Assembly (NCBI RefSeq): GCF_900089775.1
Contig: NZ_FLOB01000001.1
Location: forward strand, 682,001-746,000
Length of the DNA: 64,000 nucleotides
From: Marinomonas spartinae
GTDB taxonomy: Bacteria; Pseudomonadota; Gammaproteobacteria; Pseudomonadales; Marinomonadaceae
Direction: 5' to 3'
Shown piece by piece: positions 88-12,218 of the stretch. The position numbers were made by a program, and so were the translations under genes. The notes below the pieces were generated by a model. The model was not told the origin of the DNA and searched no databases. It saw only the letters and a program-made list of their open reading frames with translations. Each line of letters begins with the position of its first letter. Positions within the stretch are counted from its first letter, which is position 1.

Positions 88-163
88 GCCCAGATAGCTC
101 AGTCGGTAGAGCAGAGGATTGAAAATCCTCGTGTCGGTGGTTCGATTCCGCCTCTGGGCACCA
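88..163 (+). tRNA. tRNA-Phe (GAA)
   Basis: A 76-nt cloverleaf. The acceptor stem GCCCAGA pairs with TCTGGGC and the gene-encoded CCA lies at 161-163. The D-arm AGCTCAGTCGGTAGAGC, the anticodon loop with GAA at 121-123, and the T-arm GGTTCGATTCC are all standard. A P2-like integrase remnant lies 177 bp downstream and points at the tRNA, so the 3' end of this gene is the likely chromosomal attachment site of the decayed prophage. Confidence 0.97.
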
Positions 164-264
164 TTTCTAAGTGTTTCTTAATATCCCCCAATCCCTTATA
201 TATCAAGCCTTTCAGCGTTTTTGTGTTCATTTTAAAAAATACTTGAATCAATTAATCCGTGTGG

Positions 265-344
265 CTGGTGTCCAGTAAGTGTCCTAAGAATTTTGAGAGG
301 TTGGACACCAAGCCCTTTAGACTGGTGTCCAAGAGTGTCCTAAG
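265..344. repeat. Short repeats between tRNA-Phe and integrase, possible integrase arm sites
   Basis: CTGGTGTCCAGTAAGTGTCC starts at 265, and a near copy, CTGGTGTCCAAGAGTGTCC, starts at 322. An inverted copy, TTGGACACCA (301-310), pairs exactly with 323-332 to make a 10-bp stem. P2-family integrases bind repeated arm-type sites beside att, and the placement fits. The stem could also act as a terminator for int on the minus strand. Either role is inferred. Confidence 0.5.
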
Positions 345-600
345 CGGCAACGATCATGCCTGAGCGTTCCATGATGGCGATCGGGTTTTTGTGGATGGCG
401 TCGGCCAAATAATCAGGGTGGAACTTCGCATAACGAAGGGTCATTTTTAGTGTTTTGTGACCAAGTATTTTCTGCAGATCAAAGATCGAACCTTTCTCTC
501 TCATAAAGTGCACTGCGAATGTATGCCGCATAACGTGAGTCAGTTGGCCACGAGGTAAATAAATACCAGCATTTTGAATGCCAGTCCTAAGCGCTCGGCC
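340..600 (-). pseudogene. int: P2-like tyrosine recombinase (integrase), C-terminal fragment
   Basis: Reading leftwards, about 85 residues match the C-terminal catalytic part of P2/186-type integrases. They include the box with HVMRHTFAVHF, the LGHKTLKMTLRYAKF segment carrying the nucleophilic tyrosine, and a DAIHKNP tail. The open frame runs on to 858, but its first half is antisense to a zinc-ribbon gene and does not look like integrase, so the real homology stops near 590-600. The N-terminal arm-binding domain and the first catalytic arginine are lost, so the enzyme cannot be active. The join marks a deletion endpoint inside the prophage. Confidence 0.8.
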
Positions 601-804
601 GTTGAAGCCGAGATCGTCGTCAAAGTCCTGTGCCATTCGTGCCACGACAAAGAGCTGCACATCAACATGGAGACTTGGGAGCAATGCTTCATCGCCAGCG
701 AACTCAACGATCGCGGCTGGCGGCAAGTCACCACCGAGGATGAACACATCGTCCAAACCTGCCCACAGTGTGTGGAGCAACTTGAGAAGGCATTTAAGGA
801 GTAA
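574..804 (+). CDS. Small zinc-ribbon protein, probably cut at its 5' end
   Basis: A 76-codon frame from a TTG encodes a compact acidic protein with CHSC near residue 20 and CPQC near residue 63. These are two CxxC pairs, as in a zinc ribbon, separated by a Trp-rich stretch. The first few codons overlap the integrase fragment on the other strand, so the original start was probably removed by the deletion that fused the two. Small proteins of this kind are common in P2-like phages, but I cannot name the family. There is no clear ribosome site before the TTG, so expression is doubtful. Confidence 0.5.
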   Translation: MNASPKRSAVEAEIVVKVLCHSCHDKELHINMETWEQCFIASELNDRGWRQVTTEDEHIVQTCPQCVEQLEKAFKE

Positions 805-884
805 AAGAAAGGGGGCGAAAGCCCCCTTGGTATTACGAGAGGATATTGATTTCGACATCTACCGTATGTACTTGAATGGTTCGC

Positions 885-2516
885 TTACACCCTAAATTTA
901 CCCATTCGGGCTTTGTTTAAATTGCTAGTGCTTGATATCCTATCAAGAGCTTGTTGGACCTTCTCTGCCAAATCCTCGTTGCTATTAGCAATTAGTAAAA
1001 AGACACGAATATAATCCTTTAAGTCTTTACCTTTAAATCCCATAAAAAGATTATACATTTCGTCGACTGTAAGTCTGGCTAATATTTCAGCTTCAGGAAC
1101 GTTATAAGACTGAGTGCCACGCCTCAACTCCAATATCTCTTCGACTGTCGGCTCTGGCTTTAACTCTAAATATGATTCACGTAACCTTTCAGAAAAATGT
1201 GAATCCTTCACTTCAAATGGTGAATTATCAACATCAAGTGCTTCGGGATTCTCTTTATTAGATTCAATGAATAGCTCGGTCAACTCGTCCGCTATTTTGG
1301 CATATCCAATCTCTCGTAATAACTTTACCCCTTGGCTATATTGAGCAGCTGAAGCATTAGGCGCTATATCTTTCATTCCGGCTTCAAACGCTAAAGCAAT
1401 TTCGTCTTCATTGTTACTAAAAGAATCGTGAAAAAGATTCCATGCATGATTCCAATTTTTACTAGTTCGCTGAATTTCTACCTCTTGTTGTTTTTGAGTA
1501 CAAAGAGGGAGCAGCTTTTCCGCATCAAGAAAGCCTTGCTCTATACCGCGAGCAACAGCGGCATCTATTTCATCAGTATATCTGTAACCATATTGATTTA
1601 ACGTCAAATTCCAACGCTCGGTGGTTTCTTCGTTCCAACCCAATTCATCGTTCTTTTCTCTTGATCCAAGTCGGTTTACAAATGCAAATTCCGGTATACG
1701 ATTTTCATCTGCACCGTGGCAGTAGTAGCACCAACTGAGAACGATAGTCGAGTGTATGACTTGTTTTTTGATGCTTTCATCAAAGGTGGTCACGAGTGCC
1801 AAAAACTCCTTTGTATGTTCGACGATCTTTTTTATGACCCGCTTGTTTTTGATGTCTAAGCCAATACAGCAATCACGAATGAAGCCTTTGAGTTCGAAGT
1901 CGTCAGTAATCATTATATCGAAGCATTGTTCTGCTGTTGGCTCGAAATGGAGTTGTCGGTCTACGATTTTTTCTTTGTACTTTTTATAGTCTTCGAAGGT
2001 TTCATCACCCGCATCCTCGTTGAGCAACAATACAATCTTGCAATCCTTTTGCTCCTTAAAGAATGAAACCAACCCCATGAAGTCTTTGATGGTAATTCCC
2101 TTGCTATGACGCTCTAAATCATCGAAGCAAATGATGGTCTTGTTCATGGCTAGTTGAGAAACTGAGCTAATAATGCTGCTAGTGCCTCCCACATACTTGC
2201 CGATAAAAGGTATTTTTGTATCTCCTATTAAGCTCGCCAATTTTTTTGAGTAGCTTTTGATGTTAGGTGTGTCACCAATACTTTTGGTATCAATGGCATT
2301 TAGAAATGTCATTTGTTTTAATTCGGCAATAGAGTTAATTCCAAACAGTGAAACGTAGGAGTATGACTTTAATTTGCATTCGTCTTTGAGTGCTCTGATG
2401 TTTTCTTCCCAACTGTAAGTCTTACCCACCCCCCAACAGCCTTTGATGGCGAGCACTTCGGGATTATCGGTGGAAAGAAATTTTCGAATTTGCTCTTTAA
2501 CTAAATCAACTGACAT
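885..2516 (-). CDS. KAP-like P-loop NTPase, candidate phage-defence gene
   Basis: The 543-residue protein has a Walker A GCWGVGKT at residues 26-33 and a Walker B IICFDDLER ending near 136. The YVSLFGINS segment after Walker A is typical of KAP-family and related STAND-like NTPases. A second hydrophobic strand, KIVLLLNED, follows near 165. The remaining ~370 residues are helical and charged and have no motif I recognise. There is no convincing membrane segment. The gene stands alone in the cargo interval of a P2-like prophage, between the integrase and portal remnants, the position used by old, tin and many anti-phage genes. It is intact inside a decayed element, which suggests selection for the cargo. 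The defence role is inferred from location and fold only. Confidence 0.7.
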   Translation of the reverse strand: MSVDLVKEQIRKFLSTDNPEVLAIKGCWGVGKTYSWEENIRALKDECKLKSYSYVSLFGINSIAELKQMTFLNAIDTKSIGDTPNIKSYSKKLASLIGDTKIPFIGKYVGGTSSIISSVSQLAMNKTIICFDDLERHSKGITIKDFMGLVSFFKEQKDCKIVLLLNEDAGDETFEDYKKYKEKIVDRQLHFEPTAEQCFDIMITDDFELKGFIRDCCIGLDIKNKRVIKKIVEHTKEFLALVTTFDESIKKQVIHSTIVLSWCYYCHGADENRIPEFAFVNRLGSREKNDELGWNEETTERWNLTLNQYGYRYTDEIDAAVARGIEQGFLDAEKLLPLCTQKQQEVEIQRTSKNWNHAWNLFHDSFSNNEDEIALAFEAGMKDIAPNASAAQYSQGVKLLREIGYAKIADELTELFIESNKENPEALDVDNSPFEVKDSHFSERLRESYLELKPEPTVEEILELRRGTQSYNVPEAEILARLTVDEMYNLFMGFKGKDLKDYIRVFLLIANSNEDLAEKVQQALDRISSTSNLNKARMGKFRV

Positions 2517-2641
2517 GTCTACAATTTCCCTACAGAATAGAATGCTCTGAAACAGATATTGATACTAAGCTCTAGAGCCGCTATTTGGCTATTATTTGTT
2601 ACGCTTAGTGTGGGTGGCATCCCTCGTAGACAATTGAAAAG

Positions 2642-2667
2642 AAGCCCGTGTCCTTGGATGTGGGCTT
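2642..2667 (-). terminator. Probable terminator of the Ogr-fusion gene
   Basis: AAGCCC (2642-2647) pairs with GGGCTT (2662-2667), just past the stop of the gene that ends at 2670. On the minus strand the stem is followed by CTTTTC. It separates that gene from the NTPase downstream. Confidence 0.55.
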
Positions 2668-2669
2668 AA

Positions 2670-3518
2670 TTATGCTTGTTCGATCAGGTCTGACACGTTG
2701 AAATCGTCTACTAGCACTTGGCTAAGCTGTGGGCCCGCGAGCTGGACCAGGTAAGGTCGCACGCAGTCGTCTTGGATTAGTGCTTGTACGCTGAAAGATC
2801 GGGCCATTTGTTTGTGGATTTTGTACATCTCTTCGACTTTTTGCACTTCGTTCGATACTAGGCCAGTCACGCCTGCAATGCTGCTGGTTAGGTCTCCTGC
2901 AATACGATCCAATAAGGCTTCAAATGAGGGGCGCTCCATGTCCCCGGCATCGTAATCCGTTATGCCCTGGTCTAGTTCATCCAGTGCGCTTGAGGCAGCA
3001 TTGAGATAGCGATCCGTTGCGCCTGCCAGTGTGCCAGCAATCGTTTTGATGTTGGTACAGCTTGGTGGGGCGTCATTGATGACGCTGTCGATCTCTTTTA
3101 CTGCCGCTGCGACGTTCATATCGTCTAGGAAACTTTCTAAGCGCTGTTGCACGTGGGCGTTGAGCACATTGGCCCCTTGACCATAGTTATCCAGAGCGGT
3201 GATGCAGTTTTGTACTTTGGCCGCGTTAGGTCGTGTTGCAGCTAAAGCAGGGTCAATTGTTTCGCCTTCAGCAGGTAGGTATTTTTGCAAGCGTATTTTT
3301 AACTGTGCGGCTTGGGAGCCTGTGGCGGTGGCTTTGGTCGTTGTTGCGCTCTGTAGCCCGTGGCCTGCTTGAACAACAAACGATGCATAGCAATCAGGGT
3401 TATGGCAATGGCAGTACAGGTCTATAAGAAATAGACCGTCCATATCCTCCGATACTTCGTTATTGTGGGCAATCACACCAGTGCTTTTGCAATTGGGGCA
3501 GACAACACGAAGCGACAT
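2670..3518 (-). CDS. Ogr/Delta-type zinc finger fused to a phage domain of unknown role
   Basis: From the chosen start (MSLRVVCPNC) the protein is 282 residues. The first ~60 match the Ogr/Delta zinc finger of P2 and P4, the activator of late phage genes: CPNC, then a C-x-C-x4-C cluster followed by YASFVV. Ogr is only about 72 residues. Here a ~220-residue C-terminal part follows, rich in Ala, Asp and helices, without catalytic motifs, and resembling a phage virion-associated domain. An upstream ATG at 3578 would add 20 residues, but neither start has a good ribosome site. I preferred the start closest to family length. The gene sits next to the portal relic, where some P2 relatives keep their ogr gene. 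Confidence 0.6.
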   Translation of the reverse strand: MSLRVVCPNCKSTGVIAHNNEVSEDMDGLFLIDLYCHCHNPDCYASFVVQAGHGLQSATTTKATATGSQAAQLKIRLQKYLPAEGETIDPALAATRPNAAKVQNCITALDNYGQGANVLNAHVQQRLESFLDDMNVAAAVKEIDSVINDAPPSCTNIKTIAGTLAGATDRYLNAASSALDELDQGITDYDAGDMERPSFEALLDRIAGDLTSSIAGVTGLVSNEVQKVEEMYKIHKQMARSFSVQALIQDDCVRPYLVQLAGPQLSQVLVDDFNVSDLIEQA

Positions 3519-3613
3519 AAAATGACCATATTTGTGCATATTGTTTGCGATGCCTTTAAATACTCCGTGTGTTTGCATGTGAAATTTTGGTTTTTGTATG
3601 TAAATGATATTTA

Positions 3614-3702
3614 GGGTTATTGGGGTTATAGTCTTTTTTCTTGTGGGGTTGCTGGGGTTATAGGAATTGCTAATTGGTTTTTTATGGTTACTGGGGTTAT
3701 AG
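3614..3702. repeat. Three direct repeats in the promoter region between the Ogr fusion and hicA
   Basis: Three 18-bp copies of a GGGTTnnTGGGGTTATAG unit start at 3614, 3646 and 3685. Each is itself a near-double of GGGTTA. They lie in the divergent intergenic space and look like binding sites for a regulator, perhaps the Ogr-type protein or a lost phage repressor. They differ from the classical Ogr site, a dyad of TGT and ACA. Confidence 0.6.
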
Positions 3703-3737
3703 TTTGCTTATCGTTTTATCGAGCCAAGGAAAAATAT

Positions 3738-3920
3738 ATGAAAAGCCGTGAGGTTATTCAAATGCTTGAAGACGATGGTTGGTACGAAGTTAGAAAGAAA
3801 GGTAGCCACTTACACTTTAAACACCCTAGTAAAAAGGGTTTAGTTACGGTTCCTCATCCTAAAACAGACATACCAGCAGGCACTCTGAAAAGCATTTTCA
3901 AACAAGCTCAGTTTAGCTGA
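3738..3920 (+). CDS. hicA: HicA-type mRNA interferase toxin
   Basis: The 60-residue protein has the full HicA fold: MKSREVIQMLEDDGW, then GSHLHFKH with the catalytic His24, then VPHPKTDIPAGTLKSIFKQA. HicA is a double-stranded-RNA-binding-fold ribonuclease that cleaves mRNA and stops translation until HicB binds it. The ATG at 3738 is preceded by AAGGA at 3726-3730; an upstream in-frame start at 3684 lacks this. hicB follows after an unusually long gap of 239 bp that contains a stem-loop and a palindrome. Confidence 0.92.
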   Translation: MKSREVIQMLEDDGWYEVRKKGSHLHFKHPSKKGLVTVPHPKTDIPAGTLKSIFKQAQFS

Positions 3921-3933
3921 GCTTGTTTGAAAA
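3895..3933. other. Perfect 17-bp stem-loop overlapping the hicA stop codon
   Basis: Positions 3895-3911 pair exactly with 3917-3933 around a 5-nt loop. The hicA TGA lies in the right arm. There is no T-run after it on the plus strand, but four T residues flank it when read on the minus strand. It could attenuate read-through from hicA into hicB, protect the hicA mRNA end, or be a terminator read from the other side. Confidence 0.65.
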
Positions 3934-4013
3934 CCTTAATGGCAAGTACGTAAAAATTATTAGGATAAGTCTAAGAATTTATGCGCTATCTATTCATGTT
4001 AATATGAATGAAA

Positions 4014-4049
4014 TTACTTTAATAACGTGCATGCGCATTATTAAAGTAA
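4014..4049. promoter_or_regulatory. Long palindrome, probable HicB operator before hicB
   Basis: TTACTTTAATAA (4014-4025) is the exact inverse of TTATTAAAGTAA (4038-4049), and the 12-nt centre is itself nearly palindromic. HicB proteins with DNA-binding C-termini repress their own promoters through such dyads. A second small dyad, TTCAT/ATGAA, lies just upstream. This suggests hicB has its own promoter, separate from hicA. Confidence 0.6.
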
Positions 4050-4159
4050 AGTAAAGTATACAACAACCGAAAACAAAGTAGAGAAGATCAATATATTTTA
4101 ATATTTATTGATCGTTGCTGAAACTAGACCACTTGGTCTGTGTCAGCATAGGGGGAAAT

Positions 4160-4564
4160 ATGAAATATCCTGTAGTATTGCATACCGATGATAATGAGTC
4201 TTACGGTGTTACTGTGCCTGACGTGCAAGGTTGCTTCTCTGCAGGCTCATCATTTGATGAAGCTCTTGATATGGTTGATGAAGCAATCTTCCTACATTTA
4301 GAGTTATTGTTAGAAGACGGTGAGGACATTCCTAAAGCCTCTTCTATCTCTGAATTAAAAGATAATCCTGATTATAGTGACGGTGTGTGGGCTATAGTAG
4401 ATGTTGATATCACTCCGTTATTAGGTAAGAGTGAAAAAATCAATGTAACTCTCCCGCACCTTTTGATTACTAAAATCGATAAGGCGGTTTCCTCTAACCC
4501 AAAATATCGATCTCGTTCGGGCTTTTTAGCTGAAGTATCTAAAAAAGCGCTTGAACTTGCTTAG
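4160..4564 (+). CDS. hicB: HicB-type antitoxin with C-terminal DNA-binding domain
   Basis: The 134-residue protein has the partial RNase H-like HicB fold at the N-terminus (MKYPVVLHTDDNESYGVTVPDVQGCFSAG cut here; the PDVQGCFSAG motif is diagnostic). This is followed by a ribbon-helix-helix-like C-terminus (INVTLPHLLITKIDKAV ... RSGFLAEVSKKAL). It neutralises HicA by direct binding and represses transcription. The ATG at 4160 has GGGGGA just upstream; the longer frame from 4115 has no ribosome site. The pair may be what keeps this relic in the chromosome. Confidence 0.92.
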   Translation: MKYPVVLHTDDNESYGVTVPDVQGCFSAGSSFDEALDMVDEAIFLHLELLLEDGEDIPKASSISELKDNPDYSDGVWAIVDVDITPLLGKSEKINVTLPHLLITKIDKAVSSNPKYRSRSGFLAEVSKKALELA

Positions 4565-4592
4565 TTTTCTAACCACCTTGGCTCTTTGAAAG

Positions 4593-4620
4593 ATACCCGC
4601 CCTCGTGCGGGTATTTTTTC
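4593..4620 (+). terminator. Terminator of hicB
   Basis: An 8-bp stem, ATACCCGC paired with GCGGGTAT, is followed by six T residues, 29 bp after the hicB stop. Confidence 0.85.
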
Positions 4621-4905
4621 GTTTAGAGCAGTCCAAACTCGCTGTATGGCGAGTATTTCGCTGTTGTAGTAAACCTCTCTTATATTTTGTAGATTCCCAA
4701 CCCCCTTGCGTTTAATGGCATGATGTTAGCGAGCGGCGCCAGCACACGGTGCATGTTGAGGATGTCTTACATGGTGACGGGTTTGATCTTTTCGTATTCG
4801 TCTTTGTTGTTCAGCTCCCCGATTGAAATGAGTTGTAATCTGTCTCTGGTGTGTAGCGCTTCCCTTAGTGAGTTTTTGTTACCATTCAGTATTTTCTGTT
4901 CCTAT
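4595..4905 (-). pseudogene. Relic of a P2-like capsid portal protein (gpQ)
   Basis: Read on the minus strand from about 4904 to 4600, the peptide RLQLISIGELNNKDEYEKIK, a stop, then DILNMHRVLAPLANIMP follows the C-terminal part of P2 gpQ. In gpQ this part reads roughly I-Q-L-I-P-(I/L)-S-E-V-A-x-K-D-E-F, then A-A-H-R-V-P-P-x-L-x-G-x-x-P. After a frameshift near 4695 the next frame gives GNLQNIREVYYNSEI...ALNE, matching the gpQ ending around GDVEKAA-F-NEIAPLQ. One internal stop and one frameshift make it dead. No intact open frame covers it, so it is easily missed. Confidence 0.7.
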
Positions 4906-5246
4906 ATTTTTTGCTAGTGTGAAAAAGCTAATTTCTTTATCTCAAGCCCATTAAATTTGTCTCTATCAGTTGTAATGAATTGTATTTTTTCGGGGTGCTA
5001 GGGACGCTTTCAGTGGTCACTTTTGTGGCCATTTCATGGCTATAAAGTTGACTATCTCATTGATCTTTTCTTGCTAAGCTTATCTTTTTATTTGTTTTTA
5101 TTCTTCCTGAAAGGTGTGATGAAATAGTGTGTTTCTGAGTGATCTTTACTGCTTTGTTACAAAAGCGTCATATACATTTTGTAACATGCTTCTTAAAAAA
5201 GAGGGGTGATTTTTCATCGCTCGATGTTGATCAATTGGAGAAGCAT

Positions 5247-6827
5247 GTGAACATTAACAAAAAGATGTGGGTTCTTTCTGGTGCGACAGCCATCAGTATT
5301 ATACTGGTTGGCGTCTTTGCAGCTTATATTCTCTCTTCTTTGAGGGTAGATTTTGGTCATTACAAGTCGCAAATCGCGACGTCTCAACAATTGTTTGAGA
5401 TGAAGGCAACAGGGTTGTCTGTGGCAAAAGGGGATCCTATTCTGCCTTCAACTAAAACGGCTCTTGATGCGGCGAATGTTAAAATCAATGCATTGTTAAA
5501 GTCGATTGAAGCTTCTCATGTCATAGATAAGAAGAAATCGAAACTTTTAAAGCAAATTAAATCCCTGTGGGCGGAGTATTTTAAGCAGTTCAATAGTGCC
5601 ATTAATATGGCTCAAGATAGCCCTCAAGATGCGCTGCAAATACCGGATTCTATTTATGGTTTGTACTTGTTGCCAATGATTAATGATATCGATCAGCTGG
5701 TTAAGGAAAATCAAGGGCTTGAGTCTTCATCAGACGGTATCATTTCGAAACAGATGGCGATGATCTTGTGGTTGATTTTGACGCCTCTGGTTGCGGGCGG
5801 TTTGTTTGTTGTTGCCAGTCAGCGTCTGCTTGCTCGAGATCTGAGAAAGCGAGTGTTTCGTGTTTTAGATGTAGTGAAGTTTTTAGAACAAGGAGATCTA
5901 ACCAAGCGCTTGCCGGTAGAGGGGCGGGATGAACTGTCTTCGATTGCGTCGTCTGTGAACGGGTTTGTTGATAAAACTCATTCGATTTTATGTCAGGTGC
6001 GTGAGAGTACAAGTGATGTTTCTAATGCAGCTTCTGAGTTGTTTGATGCGTCGGCACATGTGGCGAATAGTGCCAGTTCTCAGAATGAGGCAGCGTCTTC
6101 TGTTGCTGCGACGGTTCAACAACTGGCGGTGAGTATTGGCCAGGTAACGGAGCATGCTAAAAGTGCGCAGTCTTTTTCTGTGCAATCTGGCGAATTGTCA
6201 ACGCAAGCGGGTGGGGTAGTCCTATCCGCGACCAACGAAATGAATAAAATCTCTGAATACTCTCGTGGTTCATCATCGTTGATTAAAGAGTTAGAGGACC
6301 GATCTAGTGATATTTCTAATATCATGCAGGTTATCAAGGACGTAGCGGATCAAACGAATTTATTGGCTCTTAATGCGGCGATAGAGGCAGCGAGAGCTGG
6401 CGAGCAAGGGCGAGGCTTTTCTGTGGTAGCAGATGAAATTCGTAATTTGGCAATGCGAACCACTCAGTCGACCAGTGAAATTGCGCAGATTGTCGGCCAG
6501 ATACAAGAGGCAACAGAGGCGGTGTCGCTCAGTATGGAGTCTGGGCTTCAGCGGGTTGAGCAAGGTGTGTTGCTTGCGCAACAGGCCGGCCAATCTATGA
6601 ATGATGTGACAGAGAGTACCGTAAAGGTAGAAGAGTCCATTGATTATATTTGTAATGCTTTGACTGAGCAGGACCATGCTAGTGATGATATTGCTAGAAA
6701 AATTGATCGTATCGCGATGATTATTCGCGAAGATGCGGAGTCTGCAAAAAATACGGTTGAAACAGCCAAAAAGTTAGATGGATTATCAGGGACTTTGAAT
6801 ACCGCAGTGAGTCAATTCCAGTTGTAA
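5247..6827 (+). CDS. Methyl-accepting chemotaxis protein
   Basis: This is a 526-residue chemoreceptor. One membrane segment near the N-terminus ([20 protein letters not shown]) is followed by a ~160-residue periplasmic four-helix-like sensor, a second membrane segment ([17 protein letters not shown]), a HAMP domain, and the cytoplasmic signalling domain. The hairpin tip contains [20 protein letters not shown]. There is no C-terminal CheR/CheB tether pentapeptide. I chose the GTG at 5247 because TTGGAG lies six bases upstream. The longer frame from 5139 would place 36 charged residues before the first membrane helix and has no such signal. The ligand is unknown. Confidence 0.9.
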
Positions 6828-6871
6828 CCATTCCTTCTCGCTTCCTTTTTGTAAAGGAGGCTTTCTTAAGC

Positions 6872-6912
6872 AAATGCTTATCTTGTGTTGTTGATGGATA
6901 AGCATTTCTTGC
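6872..6912 (+). terminator. Stem-loop after the chemoreceptor gene
   Basis: AAATGCTTATC (6872-6882) pairs exactly with GATAAGCATTT (6897-6907) around a 14-nt loop, followed by CTTGCTTTT. The T-tract is imperfect, so this is a probable rather than certain terminator. Confidence 0.5.
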
Positions 6913-7077
6913 TTTTGTTATTCAATGCGTTGGCACTTGTCGATTATTATTTTCATTACATAACTTAACGATTATCAGGATCACGAGTACGATTCTTTGA
7001 CTATTCTTAGCATAAGCACAGTAGATCCGTTTGACGCGATATAACCTCTCTATGCTTTTTTATTTAAAGGCTTCTTC

Positions 7078-10000
7078 TTGATAAATTGGTGCTCTATGCT
7101 TAAAGGAATAGTCGTTGTAGCTCTCACTGCGCTAATGTACTGGGTTCTGGGTGTTTTAGGCTTAATGGTTGCGATTCCGCCTGGTTATGCAACCATTATC
7201 TGGCCTGCTTCTGGTGTGGCTTTAGTTGCTGCGATGTTCTTTCCGCGGGTAGGACTGTATGGGGTCTTTCTCGGTTCTTTTCTCGTTAATATATTTGCTA
7301 CTTGGTATAACTTTAATATATTTGTCGTGCTTTTACCTGCTGTCATTGCATGTGGGGCGACTCTACAAGCAGCTGTTGGGGCTTGGTTAGTGGACCGTTA
7401 CGTGGGCCTTCCGTTCGCCTTCCATAGAGTGGATTTGGTATTACGTTTTGTTTTTCTAGCCTGCGTTTTGTCCACATTGATTGGCGCTACGGTCGGTTGC
7501 TTCTCTTTGTTATATTTTAAAGTCATGGAGTGGGACAGCTTTTGGGTTAACTGGCTTGGCTGGTGGGTTGGTGATTCCATCGGGGTACTGGTTGTCGTTC
7601 CTTGGTTTGCTGTGTTGCTTCCGCGCTATTTTGGTAATTATTTTCAACATCCACTCAGTCTAATATCCGGTCTGGCTTTTATTCTTATTGTGACGGCAGG
7701 GTTATCTCTTGGAGTGAGTGAATTTGAAGAGAATAAACAATCTAAGGAGTTTCGCGCGAATGCTGAGTTACTAGAGATTTCTTTAAATAATCGAATTAAA
7801 AACAGTGTAGATTTGCTTTATGGTATTGCAGGTTTTGTTCGCGGTAGTGAATCGATAACCGCAAAAGAGTTTGATCGTTATGCAATAAATGCCATGTCTC
7901 GAGATGACTCTTTTTTAGGGGTTTCACTCAATTATTCGGTGGATGGGGTGTCTATACCAGCCTTTGAACGAGAGATTCAAAAAAGTTATCCAAATTTAGA
8001 GTTTCGAGTCAAAGAGAGGAATTCGTCAGGTAAGTTGGTAAATGCGACTCCCCGAAAACGTCATATTGTGGTCACCTATGTGGTACCTAGAGAGAAAAAC
8101 AAGGCAGCTATTGGCTATGATGTTTATTCTCAGGCAAGCAGACGAGAGGCAATTGATAAAGCGATCGAACTCAAACAAGCCTACCCAACTGAACCGATTA
8201 ATTTGGTTCAGGGAGATAAAGGTGTGTTGTTGTTTTTGCCATTTTTCAACGAGGAGACTGGGGCTTTTTTAGGCGTAGCGACAGCGGTGATTGGTTTGGA
8301 TGTATTGACTAAGGAGATTGTTAACCGAGGGTTATTGCCAAATACTGAGCTGTATCTGGTGGATATGAAAGGAGCAAATGGTACTCCCATATTAGTGACC
8401 CGCAGTGCGTCTGCCCATTTGCCTTTAGAGACTGTGATCTCGCGTTTCAACAAGGGGGACTTTGGACAGGCGGTTGCCTATGATGTGAAAGTCGGCGAGA
8501 AGCGTTGGCGCTTATTTCAAGTCAGTGAAAATCGTTTTTATAAGCAGCCTTGGGGTGTGCAGTTTGTTTTGGTATGTGGTTTCTTGGTGGCGGGTATTCT
8601 GGTTTGGTTTTTGCTGATGGTCAGTAGTCAGATGTCTGAAATTGAGAGCCTAGTACGTCGTCGCACACAGGATCTTTTAGAAGCAAACCGGTCACTTAGG
8701 GCGTCAGAGTTAGCGCATAGTAAAGCAAAGCATGAGGCTGAGGAAGCCAATCAAGCAAAGAGTCTGTTTTTAGCGAATATGAGCCATGAAATCCGCACAC
8801 CGCTCAACGGCGTGATTGGCTGTTTGTCATTGATGCTGAACACCGAGTTACGTCCTGAGCAAAAAAATCTGGCAAATTTATCTCGTCAAAGTGCGGAAGC
8901 ATTATTGGAGCTGATTAATGATATTTTGGATTTATCTAAAATCGAAAGTGGCAGCATTGTGTTGGATGAGGAGTTATTCGAGTTACGGGAACTGGTTGAG
9001 GAAGTGAGTCGGCTATTGGTTTTCAAGGCACAGGAGAAGGGGATCGAATTTAATGTACCAGCGATACTGATTCCTCGTGTGTCTATTTTTGCTGATCGGT
9101 TACGGATCAAGCAAGTGATTATGAACTTATTGGGTAACGCCATTAAATTTACTTCGCAAGGTGAAGTGAACCTATGTATCCACCTTGAGCCCCTAAATGA
9201 GGGAGCTTGTGAGTTAAGCGTTAAAGTGAGTGATACTGGTATTGGCATTAAGCAAGCTCTGAAAAAGAACTTATTCCAACGCTTTAAACAAGCGGATAAT
9301 TCGACAACTCGAAAGTTTGGTGGGACGGGGTTAGGTCTAGCCATCAGTAAAAGCATTGTTGAGTTAATGGGAGGGAGTATTGGTGTTGATTCCCAAGAAG
9401 ATAAAGGCTCTACCTTTTGGTTTAATGTGACTGTGCCGTTTGAGTCTCAAGCGGAGGAGAGTGGAAACGGTTTCCAAGATTGTGCGGCGACATTGGTTTA
9501 TCGCAATGACATGGGGCGTGACTATGTTGCTTCTTTGCTTCAAGAAATAGGGGTAAGAGTGACAACGCTAAACGATATGGCGCCACTATTAGATGACGAC
9601 TCTGAAGTGTCTAAGCAGACTGTGAAGGCGCAGTGCAATATTCTTTTATTAGACGATGACCTTTACAAAAAGGTTTCTAAAGTGGATCAAACCAAGCTTA
9701 AGAGACGGTGTGAGCAAGGAAATCTGACCAGTATTTTGTTGCAAGATTATTCTGACGAGAACACCGAACCGGATATGAAGGTGATTCATAAGCCAGTTTT
9801 CAATCGTGAGTTAAAGCAAATATTGACACAAATAGTGATTCTATCTTCGAAAACGCAAACGCATGAGTTTCAAATTGAGGAGTCTACTGAGCAGACGAAT
9901 GACAAAACGCCGCGATTTAATGCGATGGTGCTGGTGGTTGAGGATAACTTTACGAATCAGGTTGTTGCTCGGGGCTTATTAGCGCGATTAGGTATTGAGG

Positions 10001-10308
10001 TTGAGATTGCTAATAATGGTGAAGAAGCACTGGCGAAGTTGCAGCAGACGCATTACGATTTGATATTTATGGATTGTCAAATGCCTGTTATGGATGGTTA
10101 TGAAGCAACAGGGCGGATTCGCCAGCTAGAGACGGGTAAAACAGAAAAAAATGTCCCTATTGTTGCCTTAAGCGCCAATGCGATGAAAGGAGATAAGTTG
10201 GTTTGTCTTGATGCAGGAATGGATGATCATATGGCTAAGCCAATTGATCAACATGAGTTATTGGCCGTCTTGGAAAAGTGGATGCCATTTGCACTGGAAA
10301 AACACTAG
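7078..10308 (+). CDS. Hybrid sensor histidine kinase, MASE1-CHASE-HisKA-HATPase-REC
   Basis: The 1076-residue protein opens with a MASE1 membrane region of about eight helices (residues 5-220, with WPASGVALVAAMFFPR). A periplasmic CHASE sensor (about 230-480), another membrane helix and a coiled coil follow. The HisKA box FLANMSHEIRTPLNG holds phospho-His570. The ATPase has NLLGNAIKFT, DTGIGI and GGTGLGL. A first receiver-like domain (about 800-900) keeps LLLDDD but is otherwise decayed. The last receiver has LIFMDCQMPVMDG with Asp999. The TTG at 7078 is favoured by AAAGG at 7066-7070; an ATG at 7096 is the alternative. The Hpt gene follows at once, so it is a phosphorelay. Confidence 0.93.
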   Translation: MINWCSMLKGIVVVALTALMYWVLGVLGLMVAIPPGYATIIWPASGVALVAAMFFPRVGLYGVFLGSFLVNIFATWYNFNIFVVLLPAVIACGATLQAAVGAWLVDRYVGLPFAFHRVDLVLRFVFLACVLSTLIGATVGCFSLLYFKVMEWDSFWVNWLGWWVGDSIGVLVVVPWFAVLLPRYFGNYFQHPLSLISGLAFILIVTAGLSLGVSEFEENKQSKEFRANAELLEISLNNRIKNSVDLLYGIAGFVRGSESITAKEFDRYAINAMSRDDSFLGVSLNYSVDGVSIPAFEREIQKSYPNLEFRVKERNSSGKLVNATPRKRHIVVTYVVPREKNKAAIGYDVYSQASRREAIDKAIELKQAYPTEPINLVQGDKGVLLFLPFFNEETGAFLGVATAVIGLDVLTKEIVNRGLLPNTELYLVDMKGANGTPILVTRSASAHLPLETVISRFNKGDFGQAVAYDVKVGEKRWRLFQVSENRFYKQPWGVQFVLVCGFLVAGILVWFLLMVSSQMSEIESLVRRRTQDLLEANRSLRASELAHSKAKHEAEEANQAKSLFLANMSHEIRTPLNGVIGCLSLMLNTELRPEQKNLANLSRQSAEALLELINDILDLSKIESGSIVLDEELFELRELVEEVSRLLVFKAQEKGIEFNVPAILIPRVSIFADRLRIKQVIMNLLGNAIKFTSQGEVNLCIHLEPLNEGACELSVKVSDTGIGIKQALKKNLFQRFKQADNSTTRKFGGTGLGLAISKSIVELMGGSIGVDSQEDKGSTFWFNVTVPFESQAEESGNGFQDCAATLVYRNDMGRDYVASLLQEIGVRVTTLNDMAPLLDDDSEVSKQTVKAQCNILLLDDDLYKKVSKVDQTKLKRRCEQGNLTSILLQDYSDENTEPDMKVIHKPVFNRELKQILTQIVILSSKTQTHEFQIEESTEQTNDKTPRFNAMVLVVEDNFTNQVVARGLLARLGIEVEIANNGEEALAKLQQTHYDLIFMDCQMPVMDGYEATGRIRQLETGKTEKNVPIVALSANAMKGDKLVCLDAGMDDHMAKPIDQHELLAVLEKWMPFALEKH

Positions 10309-10395
10309 GAGAATAGAAGTCATGGTAGAAACAGTAGGAGAATAGAAGTCATGGTAGAAACAGTAGGAGAATAGAAGTCATGGTAGAAACAGTAG
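10306..10395 (+). repeat. Perfect 29-bp tandem triplication of a translation start region
   Basis: Units at 10306-10334, 10335-10363 and 10364-10392 are identical, plus three bases of a fourth. Each contains TAGGAG, a spacer, then ATG GTA GAA ACA. The first unit contains the stop of the kinase gene. In units 1 and 2 the ATG opens a seven-codon reading frame, MVETVGE, that ends in the next unit's TAG. In unit 3 the same ATG (10380) opens the Hpt gene. Because 29 is not a multiple of three, the copies lie in different frames. Confidence 0.97.
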
Positions 10396-10730
10396 TGTTT
10401 GATTTTAATGATTTTAAAAATCGCATGGCGAGTAGTAATGAATTGATGGCGTTAGTAGCCGCAGAGTTTTTAAGAGAGGCCGCTTATTTGGTTTCTCAAT
10501 TGGATGAGAGTATTCAAGCCGAAGATTGGTTGCAGGTAGCGCAAGTTGCTCACCGTTTGAAGGGGGCTAGTGCTGAGGTATCTGGGCAAGCCATGACAGA
10601 AAGTGCTAGGGCGATTGAGTTTGCAGCTAAGGAAGGTGATTTTTCTGTTATAGCAGAGCTTTATGTGGCATTAAATAAGTATTATGTTGCTCTTAGGGAT
10701 GAATTGTCCGAATTTTTGCTGGCGAAGTGA
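10380..10730 (+). CDS. Histidine phosphotransfer (Hpt) domain protein
   Basis: This 116-residue, all-helical protein carries the Hpt motif AHRLKGASAEVSG, in which the His takes and passes on the phosphoryl group. It lies directly after the hybrid kinase, whose last domain is a receiver, so it is the natural next step of that phosphorelay. The final response regulator is not adjacent; the REC-CheC protein near 19.9 kb is one possible target, by guess only. Its start lies in the last of three identical 29-bp repeats that each supply a ribosome site and an ATG, so its translation may depend on the copy number of the repeat. Confidence 0.9.
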   Translation: MVETVVFDFNDFKNRMASSNELMALVAAEFLREAAYLVSQLDESIQAEDWLQVAQVAHRLKGASAEVSGQAMTESARAIEFAAKEGDFSVIAELYVALNKYYVALRDELSEFLLAK

Positions 10731-10836
10731 AATGAATACGTTACTGTTTTTTTATGCTTTGTAATCGTTTATTTTGACTTGCTTTATGGTTTTTTTACCG
10801 TGGTTTTACCTAGGTTGGTTTGTGAAATAAGAGTTT

Positions 10837-10854
10837 CTGTCATATAACGGAAAT
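10837..10854 (+). promoter_or_regulatory. Probable Pho box upstream of the ugp operon
   Basis: CTGTCATATAACGGAAAT has a perfect first PhoB heptamer (CTGTCAT), an AT-rich four-base spacer, and a second heptamer matching at four of seven positions. It lies 60 bp before the ugpB start, as expected for a PhoB-activated promoter. Phosphate starvation control of ugp is established in E. coli. Confidence 0.6.
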
Positions 10855-10913
10855 AATTTGTCTATATTTTATTTGCAAACTTTAAAAACTAATGGTGTGT
10901 GAGGAATCATGAA

Positions 10914-12218
10914 ATGCGTAAATTAACGCTAGCAATGGCCGTTTTAGGTGGTCTGTCTCTTTCTGGTTCGAGCTTTGCTGCTACGGAAATTCAATGGTGG
11001 CATGCAATGGGTGGTGCTAATGGCCAAGAGCTAAATAGGATTGTCAAAGAATTTAACGATTCTCAAAATAAGTACAAAGTCGATCCTGTATTTAAAGGGA
11101 CATACACTGAAACCATGACTTCTGCTATTGCGGCATTTCGTGCCCATAAGCAACCTGCCATTGTGCAAGTTTTTGAAGTAGGCACAGCCAGTATGATGGC
11201 GGCGAAAGGCGCTATCTACCCTGTCTACCAATTGATGAAAGACACCCGCGAACCGTTCAATCCAAAAGATTACCTCAGTTCCGTCACCGGTTATTATTCG
11301 GACCTAAAGGGCAATATGTTGTCGATGCCGTTTAATAGCTCAACACCGGTTCTTTACTACAATAAAGACATGTTTAAAAAAGCAGGTATTAGCTCACCAC
11401 CAAAAACTTGGGAAGAAGTGGCTGCTGATTCTAAGAAGTTGTTAGCAAGTGGTGCTAAATGTGGTTTCACCACTGGCTGGCAGTCTTGGGTGCAGCTAGA
11501 AAACCTCAGTGCTCGACATAATGTTCCTTTTGCCTCAAACGACGATGGTTTTGCTGGCCTGAATACCAAGCTGTTATTCAATGGCCCTCTTCAAGTAATG
11601 CATATCACCAAAATGCACGAATGGCAAAAGAGCGGTATTTTCAGTTATGGTGGCCGTCGTAGTGATAGTGTACCTAAGTTCTATAGCCAGCAGTGTGCCA
11701 TGTATACAGGCTCTTCTTCTGCTTACGGTGGCATGGTGAAAAATGCGAAGTTTGACTTTGGTGTATCGTCTTTACCTTATTGGGCAAGTGAAGTGAAAAA
11801 GCCGAGTAATACGATTATCGGCGGTGCGTCATTGTGGGTTCTTAGAGGCAAATCTAAAGAGCAGTACAAAGCAGTTGCTGCGTTTCTGCACTTCTTGTCA
11901 ACGCCAAAAATTCAGGCAGAATGGCACCAGTTTACGGGCTACTTGCCCATTACTCATGCCGCTTATGAGTTAACCAAGAAAGAAGGCTTTTATAAAACTC
12001 ACCCAGGTACAGACGTAGCAGTACTTCAGATGACTGCAAGCAAGCCAACGGTGAATTCTCGTGGATTGCGCTTGGGTAATTTTGTGCAAATTCGCGATGT
12101 AATCAACAGCGCTCTGGAAAGTGTCTGGAGTGGTCAAGCAACACCGCAAGCAGCACTGAATACTGCGGTAAAACGTGGTGATGCCTTGTTGCGTAGATTC
12201 GAAAGAGCGCATCAGTAA
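10914..12218 (+). CDS. ugpB: sn-Glycerol-3-phosphate-binding periplasmic protein
   Basis: A 434-residue ABC solute-binding protein with a signal peptide (MRKLTLAMAVLGGLSLSGSSF, cleaved at SSFA-ATE). The mature start TEIQWWHAMGGANG and the later segment with STPVLYYNKDMFKKAG are close to UgpB of E. coli. It captures glycerol 3-phosphate or glycerophosphodiesters in the periplasm. The ATG at 10914 follows GAGGA at 10901-10905. A GTG at 10899 in the same frame overlaps that ribosome site and is less likely. It is the first gene of ugpBAEC-ugpQ-HAD and is set apart by a stem-loop from ugpA. Confidence 0.92.
   Translation: MRKLTLAMAVLGGLSLSGSSFAATEIQWWHAMGGANGQELNRIVKEFNDSQNKYKVDPVFKGTYTETMTSAIAAFRAHKQPAIVQVFEVGTASMMAAKGAIYPVYQLMKDTREPFNPKDYLSSVTGYYSDLKGNMLSMPFNSSTPVLYYNKDMFKKAGISSPPKTWEEVAADSKKLLASGAKCGFTTGWQSWVQLENLSARHNVPFASNDDGFAGLNTKLLFNGPLQVMHITKMHEWQKSGIFSYGGRRSDSVPKFYSQQCAMYTGSSSAYGGMVKNAKFDFGVSSLPYWASEVKKPSNTIIGGASLWVLRGKSKEQYKAVAAFLHFLSTPKIQAEWHQFTGYLPITHAAYELTKKEGFYKTHPGTDVAVLQMTASKPTVNSRGLRLGNFVQIRDVINSALESVWSGQATPQAALNTAVKRGDALLRRFERAHQ

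Follow-up and report, generated by a model that had tools for sequence, protein, structure and literature searches.

The DNA analyzed here, called the window, is a 64,000-nucleotide stretch of the Marinomonas spartinae genome (contig NZ_FLOB01000001.1, positions 682,001 to 746,000 of the forward strand). Near its start, the remains of a P2-like prophage follow a tRNA-Phe gene, and within these remains lies an intact gene encoding a KAP-like ATPase. The features, numbered by window position, are the following.

88..163, plus strand: tRNA-Phe(GAA), the presumed integration site (ARAGORN)
343..588, minus strand: C-terminal remnant of an integrase (Phage_integrase; P2 Int match and Pfam E 1.6e-7)
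574..804, plus strand: small cysteine-containing phage gene, probably without its 5′ end (phrog_23105, E 5.8e-7, profile 19-85 of 92)
809..828, minus strand: terminator-like hairpin directly 3′ of the KAP gene (pattern scan; putative function)
885..2516, minus strand: KAP/STAND-like P-loop NTPase of 543 amino acids (open reading frame; phrog_4740; PADLOC PDC-S49; AlphaFold2 model)
2642..2667, strand unassigned: weak hairpin in the interval from the DUF7217 stop to the KAP start (the scan lists the plus strand; minus-strand fold -9.4 kcal/mol)
2670..3578, minus strand: Ogr/Delta zinc finger in fusion with DUF7217 (E 3.2e-71 for DUF7217 and 8e-5 for Ogr_Delta)
3684..3920, plus strand: HicA toxin of a HicAB pair (HicA_toxin E 1.3e-22, residues 21-76 of the frame)
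4160..4564, plus strand: HicB antitoxin (HicB_lk_antitox E 2.9e-48)
4695..4847, minus strand: P2 gpQ portal remnant, 51 residues (tblastn)

The window was queried with 18 P2 proteins; Int and gpQ alone gave convincing matches, and no gpA match is left there. Specifically, the integrase remnant aligns with P2 Int at 379-558 on the minus strand (57% over 60 amino acids, E 4e-17). The gpQ remnant, which its alignments indicate is real but short, matches gpQ of Pantoea at E 1.8e-6, those of loci L108 and L110 at 3e-6 and 8e-6, and P2 gpQ itself at 0.002. An earlier reading made from the sequence alone had placed the ATPase gene between integrase and portal remnants, and these matches bear that location out. 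Because the two remnants flank the cargo, the int-cargo-gpQ order of a P2-like prophage is retained in the window. The ATPase gene and gpQ share a strand, with the Ogr/DUF7217 and HicAB genes between them. The sequence-only reading had further described the gene as a lone survivor among dead phage genes. Integrase and gpQ are indeed scraps, but the Ogr/DUF7217 and HicAB reading frames are open; thus, not all phage-borne genes of the remnant are dead. A search of window positions 176-12000 for a copy of the tRNA-Phe end, as expected of attR, gave nothing convincing (matches of at most 15 bases, E 0.18 or worse).

The Ogr_Delta half of the fused protein scores 22.9 bits against a cutoff of 26.3. 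In two other members of the genus, G012 and G032, a 348-codon integrase occurs together with adjoining Ogr-like and DUF7217 genes and no KAP gene; Pfam confirms both halves in G012 and the DUF7217 half only in G032. That the two adjoin as separate genes in G012 (and, by eye, in G032) suggests a role for DUF7217 in late-gene control, and the fused protein is possibly a late-gene activator. A DUF7217 search of viral contigs returned zero relatives. The intact HicAB toxin-antitoxin pair (3684-4564, with HicA likely starting at 3738) shares the cargo zone with the ATPase gene. We considered the pair as the cause of the ATPase gene's retention and rejected it: G039, a genus relative described below, has the KAP gene and no HicAB match.

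The hairpin that follows the KAP gene is part of a 42-nucleotide fold at -18.1 kcal/mol. The scan found 9 terminator-like sites versus 5.3 ± 2.3 in shuffles, and no such hairpin is seen by eye 3′ of KAP in G039. Promoter-like sites show no excess (9 versus 10.0 in shuffles). The KAP gene may be carried on a transcript of its own.

The ATPase gene coincides exactly with the coordinates given in the earlier reading: 885-2516 on the minus strand is an uninterrupted reading frame for 543 amino acids among the window's open reading frames. The Walker motifs, which that reading called intact, are so, with Walker A residues G26, W28, G29, G31, K32 and T33 and Walker B residues D132, E135 and R136 unchanged across an 11-row alignment. 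Across 74 aligned family members, the invariant positions are G26, W28, G29, G31, K32, T33, Y52, Y54, S56, D132, D133, E135, R136, C159, K183, N224, R226 and G328. The marks of KAP NTPases are Walker A, a DDL(D/E)R Walker B and a K(I/V) segment that follows it, and all of these hallmarks are present in the 74-row alignment. The Pfam KAP_NTPase profile (PF07693) matches 69 of the 74 members at E ≤ 0.01, and its cutoff is exceeded by the members from E. coli, phage-plasmids, Nostoc and Campylobacter. The window protein taken alone matches at E 0.0094 with 15.7 bits against a gathering cutoff of 20, which makes the KAP label borderline for it; we name it KAP-like or STAND-like and not a clean KAP member.

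Two further profiles place the protein in a family. Residues 2-507 match phrog_4740 nearly full length (profile 2-579 of 627, E 1.3e-59), covering most of a profile for which PHROG records no function. Residues 23-204 give the best match to the PADLOC profile PDC-S49 (profile 28-209 of 624, E 2.2e-26), a candidate class label; this match covers part of the profile and not its whole length. Validated defense models gave no match. PDC-S49 is matched by all 11 family members scanned (E ≤ 0.01). Transmembrane helices inside the KAP P-loop domain are common, not obligatory. A hydropathy scan of the window protein found no transmembrane segment (the highest 19-residue Kyte-Doolittle mean is 1.02), and by this simple test the mean exceeds 1.6 in 6 of the 74 family members. 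No nuclease or membrane domain is recognized in the protein, nor does Pfam recognize a DNA-binding domain there.

The protein has two parts, an ATPase core at about residues 1-260 and an all-helical part at about 262-543. An AlphaFold2 model of the full protein has a mean pLDDT of 90.2 and a pTM of 0.73. In this predicted model, residues 1-260 are closest to ORC/Cdc6 and TnsC (Z of about 12-14): the comparison with ORC/Cdc6 7jk6_D gives Z 14.0 (rmsd 4.1, 213 residues aligned), and the TnsC-type DNA-handling ATPases score nearly as well (7mcs_B, Z 13.2, rmsd 4.2, 237 aligned). Foldseek returned 33 matches at E ≤ 0.001, chiefly ORC/Cdc6 subunits, along with Yta7, FtsH, RFC, SAMD9, Apaf-1 and NLRP7; Avs4 lies just past this threshold (1.3e-3). 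Because the TM-scores are low, we take these matches to indicate class and not function. As modeled, the core has an ORC/Cdc6-like AAA+ arrangement and would belong to the ORC/Cdc6/STAND-like ATPases. The sequence-only reading had begun its tail of unrecognized kind near residue 180; we modeled residues 262-543 instead because the ORC-like matches extend to about residue 260. The separately modeled tail is all-helical (mean pLDDT 94.5) and gave zero Foldseek matches at E ≤ 0.001. Its top VIA-align 2 Z is 6.7, and since the arrangement may be common among helical proteins, we do not claim the modeled tail as a new fold. A PDB sequence search of the protein produced only two hits at E ≤ 1, a threonine synthase and a meiosis protein, both judged to be chance.

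Retention of the gene was followed at the tRNA-Phe sites of the genus. Sites from 40 of 47 other members (two of the stretches being short) were compared with those of G000, which carries the window, and G039. The KAP gene is present at 2 of the 42 sites, in G000 and G039. Integrase matches occur at 4 of the 42 (G000, G010, G012 and G032), and in G010, G012 and G032 as well they are of P2 type and stand immediately after tRNA-Phe. In G039, an intact KAP copy, 80% identical, sits at tRNA-Phe while the phage genes are almost gone. Its DNA aligns with window 829-2725 at 83.5% nucleotide identity, a segment that takes in scraps of the small cysteine-containing gene and of the DUF7217 gene; the KAP frame is open, with one ambiguous base, and the remainder of the prophage is absent. 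Over 542 codons, the window and G039 copies differ with a dN/dS of 0.23 (NG86) or 0.36 (YN00). dN is 0.036 at about residues 1-180 and 0.16 at about 301-543; by this comparison, the protein appears to be a constrained ATPase with a faster-evolving tail. What surrounds the gene has fared otherwise, with integrase and gpQ in the window and DUF7217 in G039 surviving only as scraps. The suggestion that the gene stays open as the phage decays is upheld by the intact G039 copy and the dN/dS of 0.23, and the substitution pattern supports the view that purifying selection has kept KAP after prophage decay.

A third member of the genus, G010, bears on the place that the gene occupies. The remnant it shares with the window comprises an integrase part (88%; 79.7% nucleotide identity over 197 bases between the two integrase remnants), the small cysteine-containing gene remnant also found in G039, DUF7217 (54%), HicB (72%) and a gpQ match. 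Between its small-gene and DUF7217 remnants, that is, at the place of KAP, G010 has other open reading frames without Pfam matches. From this arrangement, the KAP place appears to be exchangeable. G010 also holds more cargo between its integrase and small-gene remnants (positions 1755-6199 of L251, a 15201-base stretch, turned round). Five of the G010 cargo frames lack a Pfam match at E ≤ 0.01, and the sixth encodes a pentapeptide-repeat protein. One of these frames was searched for in phages, with zero matches.

In P2 itself, the slot between gpA and gpQ holds tin and old. We compared P2 proteins with the loci of the best 80 of 139 relatives from IMG/VR. In 34 of the 80, gpQ lies convergent within 1 kb of the KAP homolog, and in 31 of these 34, gpA lies upstream on the KAP strand. 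Of the other viral loci, 5 have gpQ elsewhere, 9 have at least two other P2 genes, and 32 have fewer, four of the last group having less than 250 bases downstream. Among 35 cases (34 viral loci and 1 genome locus), 30 have a gap of 35-56 bp between KAP and gpQ, taken between match ends. Among the best 80 of 393 relatives from the genome collection, many with short flanks, 1 locus adjoins gpQ, 1 has other P2 genes, and the remaining 78 lack gpQ and have at most one P2 gene; the two samples are not comparable with each other. A search of the genome contigs with a single protein gave zero relatives, and a search with an alignment gave the 393.

DNA relatives occur on the chromosome in 130 of 5,426 complete E. 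coli genomes (about 2%), with matches spanning under 80% of the query. When E. coli copies served as queries, 127 and 3 genomes matched over at least 80% of the gene, and these sets may overlap. The portal gene adjoins the homolog in all seven E. coli contexts examined. The gene upstream of KAP is annotated HsdR-N-terminal in three contexts, LA2681 HEPN in one, HNH in one and hypothetical in two, and two of the seven KAP copies are broken, one split into two frames and one interrupted by IS2 (L261). In three contexts (L259:2059-6653, L260:2059-6653 and L261:640-6570), an HsdR-N gene, KAP, portal, a partial terminase, a gpD scrap and ogr lie beside ybjL. With only a partial terminase and a gpD scrap left, these remnants lack the genes that lie between the two, and within the 5 kb flanks available, they appear to parallel the decay of the window prophage. 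The HsdR-N protein and KAP in L259-L261 may form a two-gene unit.

The sequence-only reading had assigned the gene to the cargo position of a P2-like prophage. This assignment is supported by the many P2-like contigs and E. coli prophages whose homologs lie between gpA and gpQ, by the int-cargo-gpQ order of the window and by the different genes that G010 carries at the KAP place; the window gene itself lies between int and gpQ remnants. That reading had also proposed to see whether homologs recur beside gpQ or in defense islands, and named mostly core contexts as grounds against it. Recurrence beside gpQ is seen in the 34 of 80 IMG/VR loci and the E. coli contexts, and 78 of 80 genome-collection loci, many of them with short flanks, show neither gpQ nor two or more P2 genes. 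Several close marine relatives look by eye like lone genes among ordinary ones, and the defense signal among neighbors, described below, is modest.

How often the gene entered P2-like phages was examined on a quick tree of 156 rows with long branches, from which two E. coli rows were dropped as identical to others. The gpQ-adjacent label, carried by 31 rows, needs two changes on this tree, gain or loss counting alike, and two are forced by starred branches. Thirty of these rows share a group of 34 with weak support (88), and L137 lies in a different, starred group. The window and G039 belong to a starred group of 12 rows that contains no gpQ-adjacent row. This pattern suggests more than one capture by P2-like phages. 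Relative to gpQ, the window gene points the opposite way from KAP in the main P2 group, consistent with a separate capture. Across 10 loci compared, homology to the window reaches no further than about 30 bases upstream of the start codon and does not pass the stop. Thus, with homology confined to the gene and flanks that differ, KAP seems to move as a bare unit.

P2-like elements are not the sole carriers. A second type consists of plasmids of about 105-121 kb with phage tail genes in Klebsiella, Salmonella, Citrobacter and E. coli, which we take to be SSU5-like phage-plasmids; in E. coli, this type is plasmid-located in 28 of 29 genomes. Homologs also occur elsewhere in P2-like contigs, on rhizobial plasmids, where a Rhizobium copy sits among transport and metabolic genes, and on chromosomes. 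Homologs are patchily distributed, occurring in 7 of 369 genomes of the class (E ≤ 1e-20) and in 5 of 143 relatives, the genome under study being included in both. Several close marine relatives, from Pseudoalteromonas and Vibrio, appear by eye to be lone genes among ordinary genes, with differing flanks.

Some homologs have defense-type neighbors: by locus, a TIR protein, ThiF with Mov34 and DUF4238, or a helicase paired with an AAA ATPase. Other loci have a helicase alongside a DNA modification enzyme, or an S8 peptidase with an ATP-binding protein. PglZ, BrxL and type IIG restriction-modification each have single matches among near neighbors, whose commonest Pfam families are DUF2288 (5/150) and AAA_21 (4). 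Over 42 genome loci at E ≤ 1e-8, PADLOC matched 139 families for near neighbors (150 of 168) versus 45 for far neighbors (145 of 162). We read this contrast as weak support, because most of the models listed are matched by just one or two proteins, several represent the same gene in variant form, and restriction-modification and BrxC matches turn up among the far neighbors as well. Individual loci deserve mention. In Vibrio metschnikovii (L024:4137-6658), about 3 kb before the KAP homolog, the gene for an AAA ATPase and a probable HNH gene overlap; judged by eye, they look like a possible Septu-type pair. The Nostoc plasmid homolog (L017:8001-17671) has as neighbors a DNA modification enzyme and a large helicase, which may make up a restriction-type defense locus. 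The Aliamphritea homolog (L041:10001-11650), between two tRNA-Gly/Cys groups, is frameshifted after about residue 188.

Comparison with known systems begins with the plasmid F protein encoded next to pifC, which we take to be PifA. Its Walker B and K(I/V) segment align with those of the family, over only 75 columns and with a probability of 64, and it matches PF07693 far better than does the window protein (E 3.2e-43 versus 0.0094). The core fold is common to the window protein, the STAND/Avs proteins and the ORC/Cdc6 AAA+ ATPases, at about 10% identity; in contrast to these, the window protein has no recognized effector domain, and its helical tail has no confident match. Tmn is described as a KAP NTPase that inhibits T2, P1 and other phages by a mechanism unexplored in that account (PMC11846954). 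Tmn possesses two transmembrane domains (PMC11846954), whereas no 19-mer of the window protein exceeds 1.02. QatA, the predicted KAP NTPase of qatABCD, is described as multimerizing and binding DNA, and its mutation or deletion as not fully disrupting qatABCD defense (PMC12424860). For mechanism, both comparisons could serve as leads only.

Regarding the slot, Rousset et al. 2022 (PMC9122126) describe the gpA-gpQ interval of P2 as a hotspot with anti-phage systems. The slot is common to old, tin and the KAP homologs, and its cargo is variable; P2 tin has no match in any KAP locus, and where Old does match, in L021 and L084, the match is not in the KAP gene. In the examined places of that paper's text, the KAP NTPase is not named, and at least one of the two occurrences of "kap" is an author name. 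A literature search on PDC-S49 and KAP yielded no recognizable paper on this ATPase family, which Table S5B of the Rousset supplement may list. With the hotspot already published, we place the KAP-like family as a further cargo of the P2 anti-phage slot and a candidate defense.

An intact gene in a wrecked P2 remnant, with relatives in a slot used against rivals, makes a good candidate antiviral gene. We consider it probable, if far from settled, that the gene is stand-alone anti-phage cargo of a P2-related prophage, encoding a soluble KAP/STAND-like ATPase that infection switches on and that blocks the phage or arrests the cell. When a competing phage infects, the protein would be switched on by way of the ATPase core; the helical part at the C-terminus would most likely be a sensor or partner-binding surface; and the activated protein would then block phage growth or arrest the infected cell. 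We infer each of these elements: the action against phages, the sensing of infection by the tail, the ATP-dependent switching and the effector step. A bolder proposal, possible but doubtful, is that the family comprises widespread, unnamed one-gene immune receptors of soluble KAP/STAND type, whose helical tails sense a phage product and lead to oligomerization and arrest, and which P2-like phages and phage-plasmids have captured more than once and hosts have retained as prophage fossils when the phage itself was dead.

The benefit need not be defense. An ORC/TnsC-like DNA-handling ATPase could aid prophage maintenance, replication or segregation, or a stress response, and the core fold is nearest ORC/Cdc6 and TnsC, DnaB-like helicase and primase genes are found close to the phage-plasmid copies, and the gpA-gpQ slot is noted to carry partition and other non-defense genes too (PMC9122126). 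Yet one phage replication role would not explain homologs in the P2 slot, at other P2 sites, on phage-plasmids and rhizobial plasmids, and on chromosomes, and Pfam's lack of a DNA-binding domain also speaks against it; we judge a non-defense benefit unlikely. Quite improbable, in our estimation, is that KAP is half of a two-gene defense system with a nuclease neighbor (HsdR-N, HEPN or HNH), the window copy being a solitary leftover or having a distant partner. The upstream E. coli genes with those annotations invite the idea, but neighbors vary, two contexts have hypothetical proteins there, and homology among close marine relatives stops at the KAP gene, yet selection persists. A neutral leftover awaiting decay would suit the decaying remainder of the prophage, the frameshifted Aliamphritea copy and the two broken E. 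coli copies; the low dN/dS across the gene and the low dN of its first 180 or so residues, beside flanking phage genes reduced to scraps, make this reading very improbable indeed.

P2-like phages are already recognized as a reservoir of anti-phage genes, and the KAP-like family is listed as unknown (phrog_4740) or as a part-matched candidate class. If the family is defensive, it would be related to PifA and Tmn yet compact and membrane-free, and it would offer an example of hosts retaining a prophage's weapon once the prophage itself is lost.
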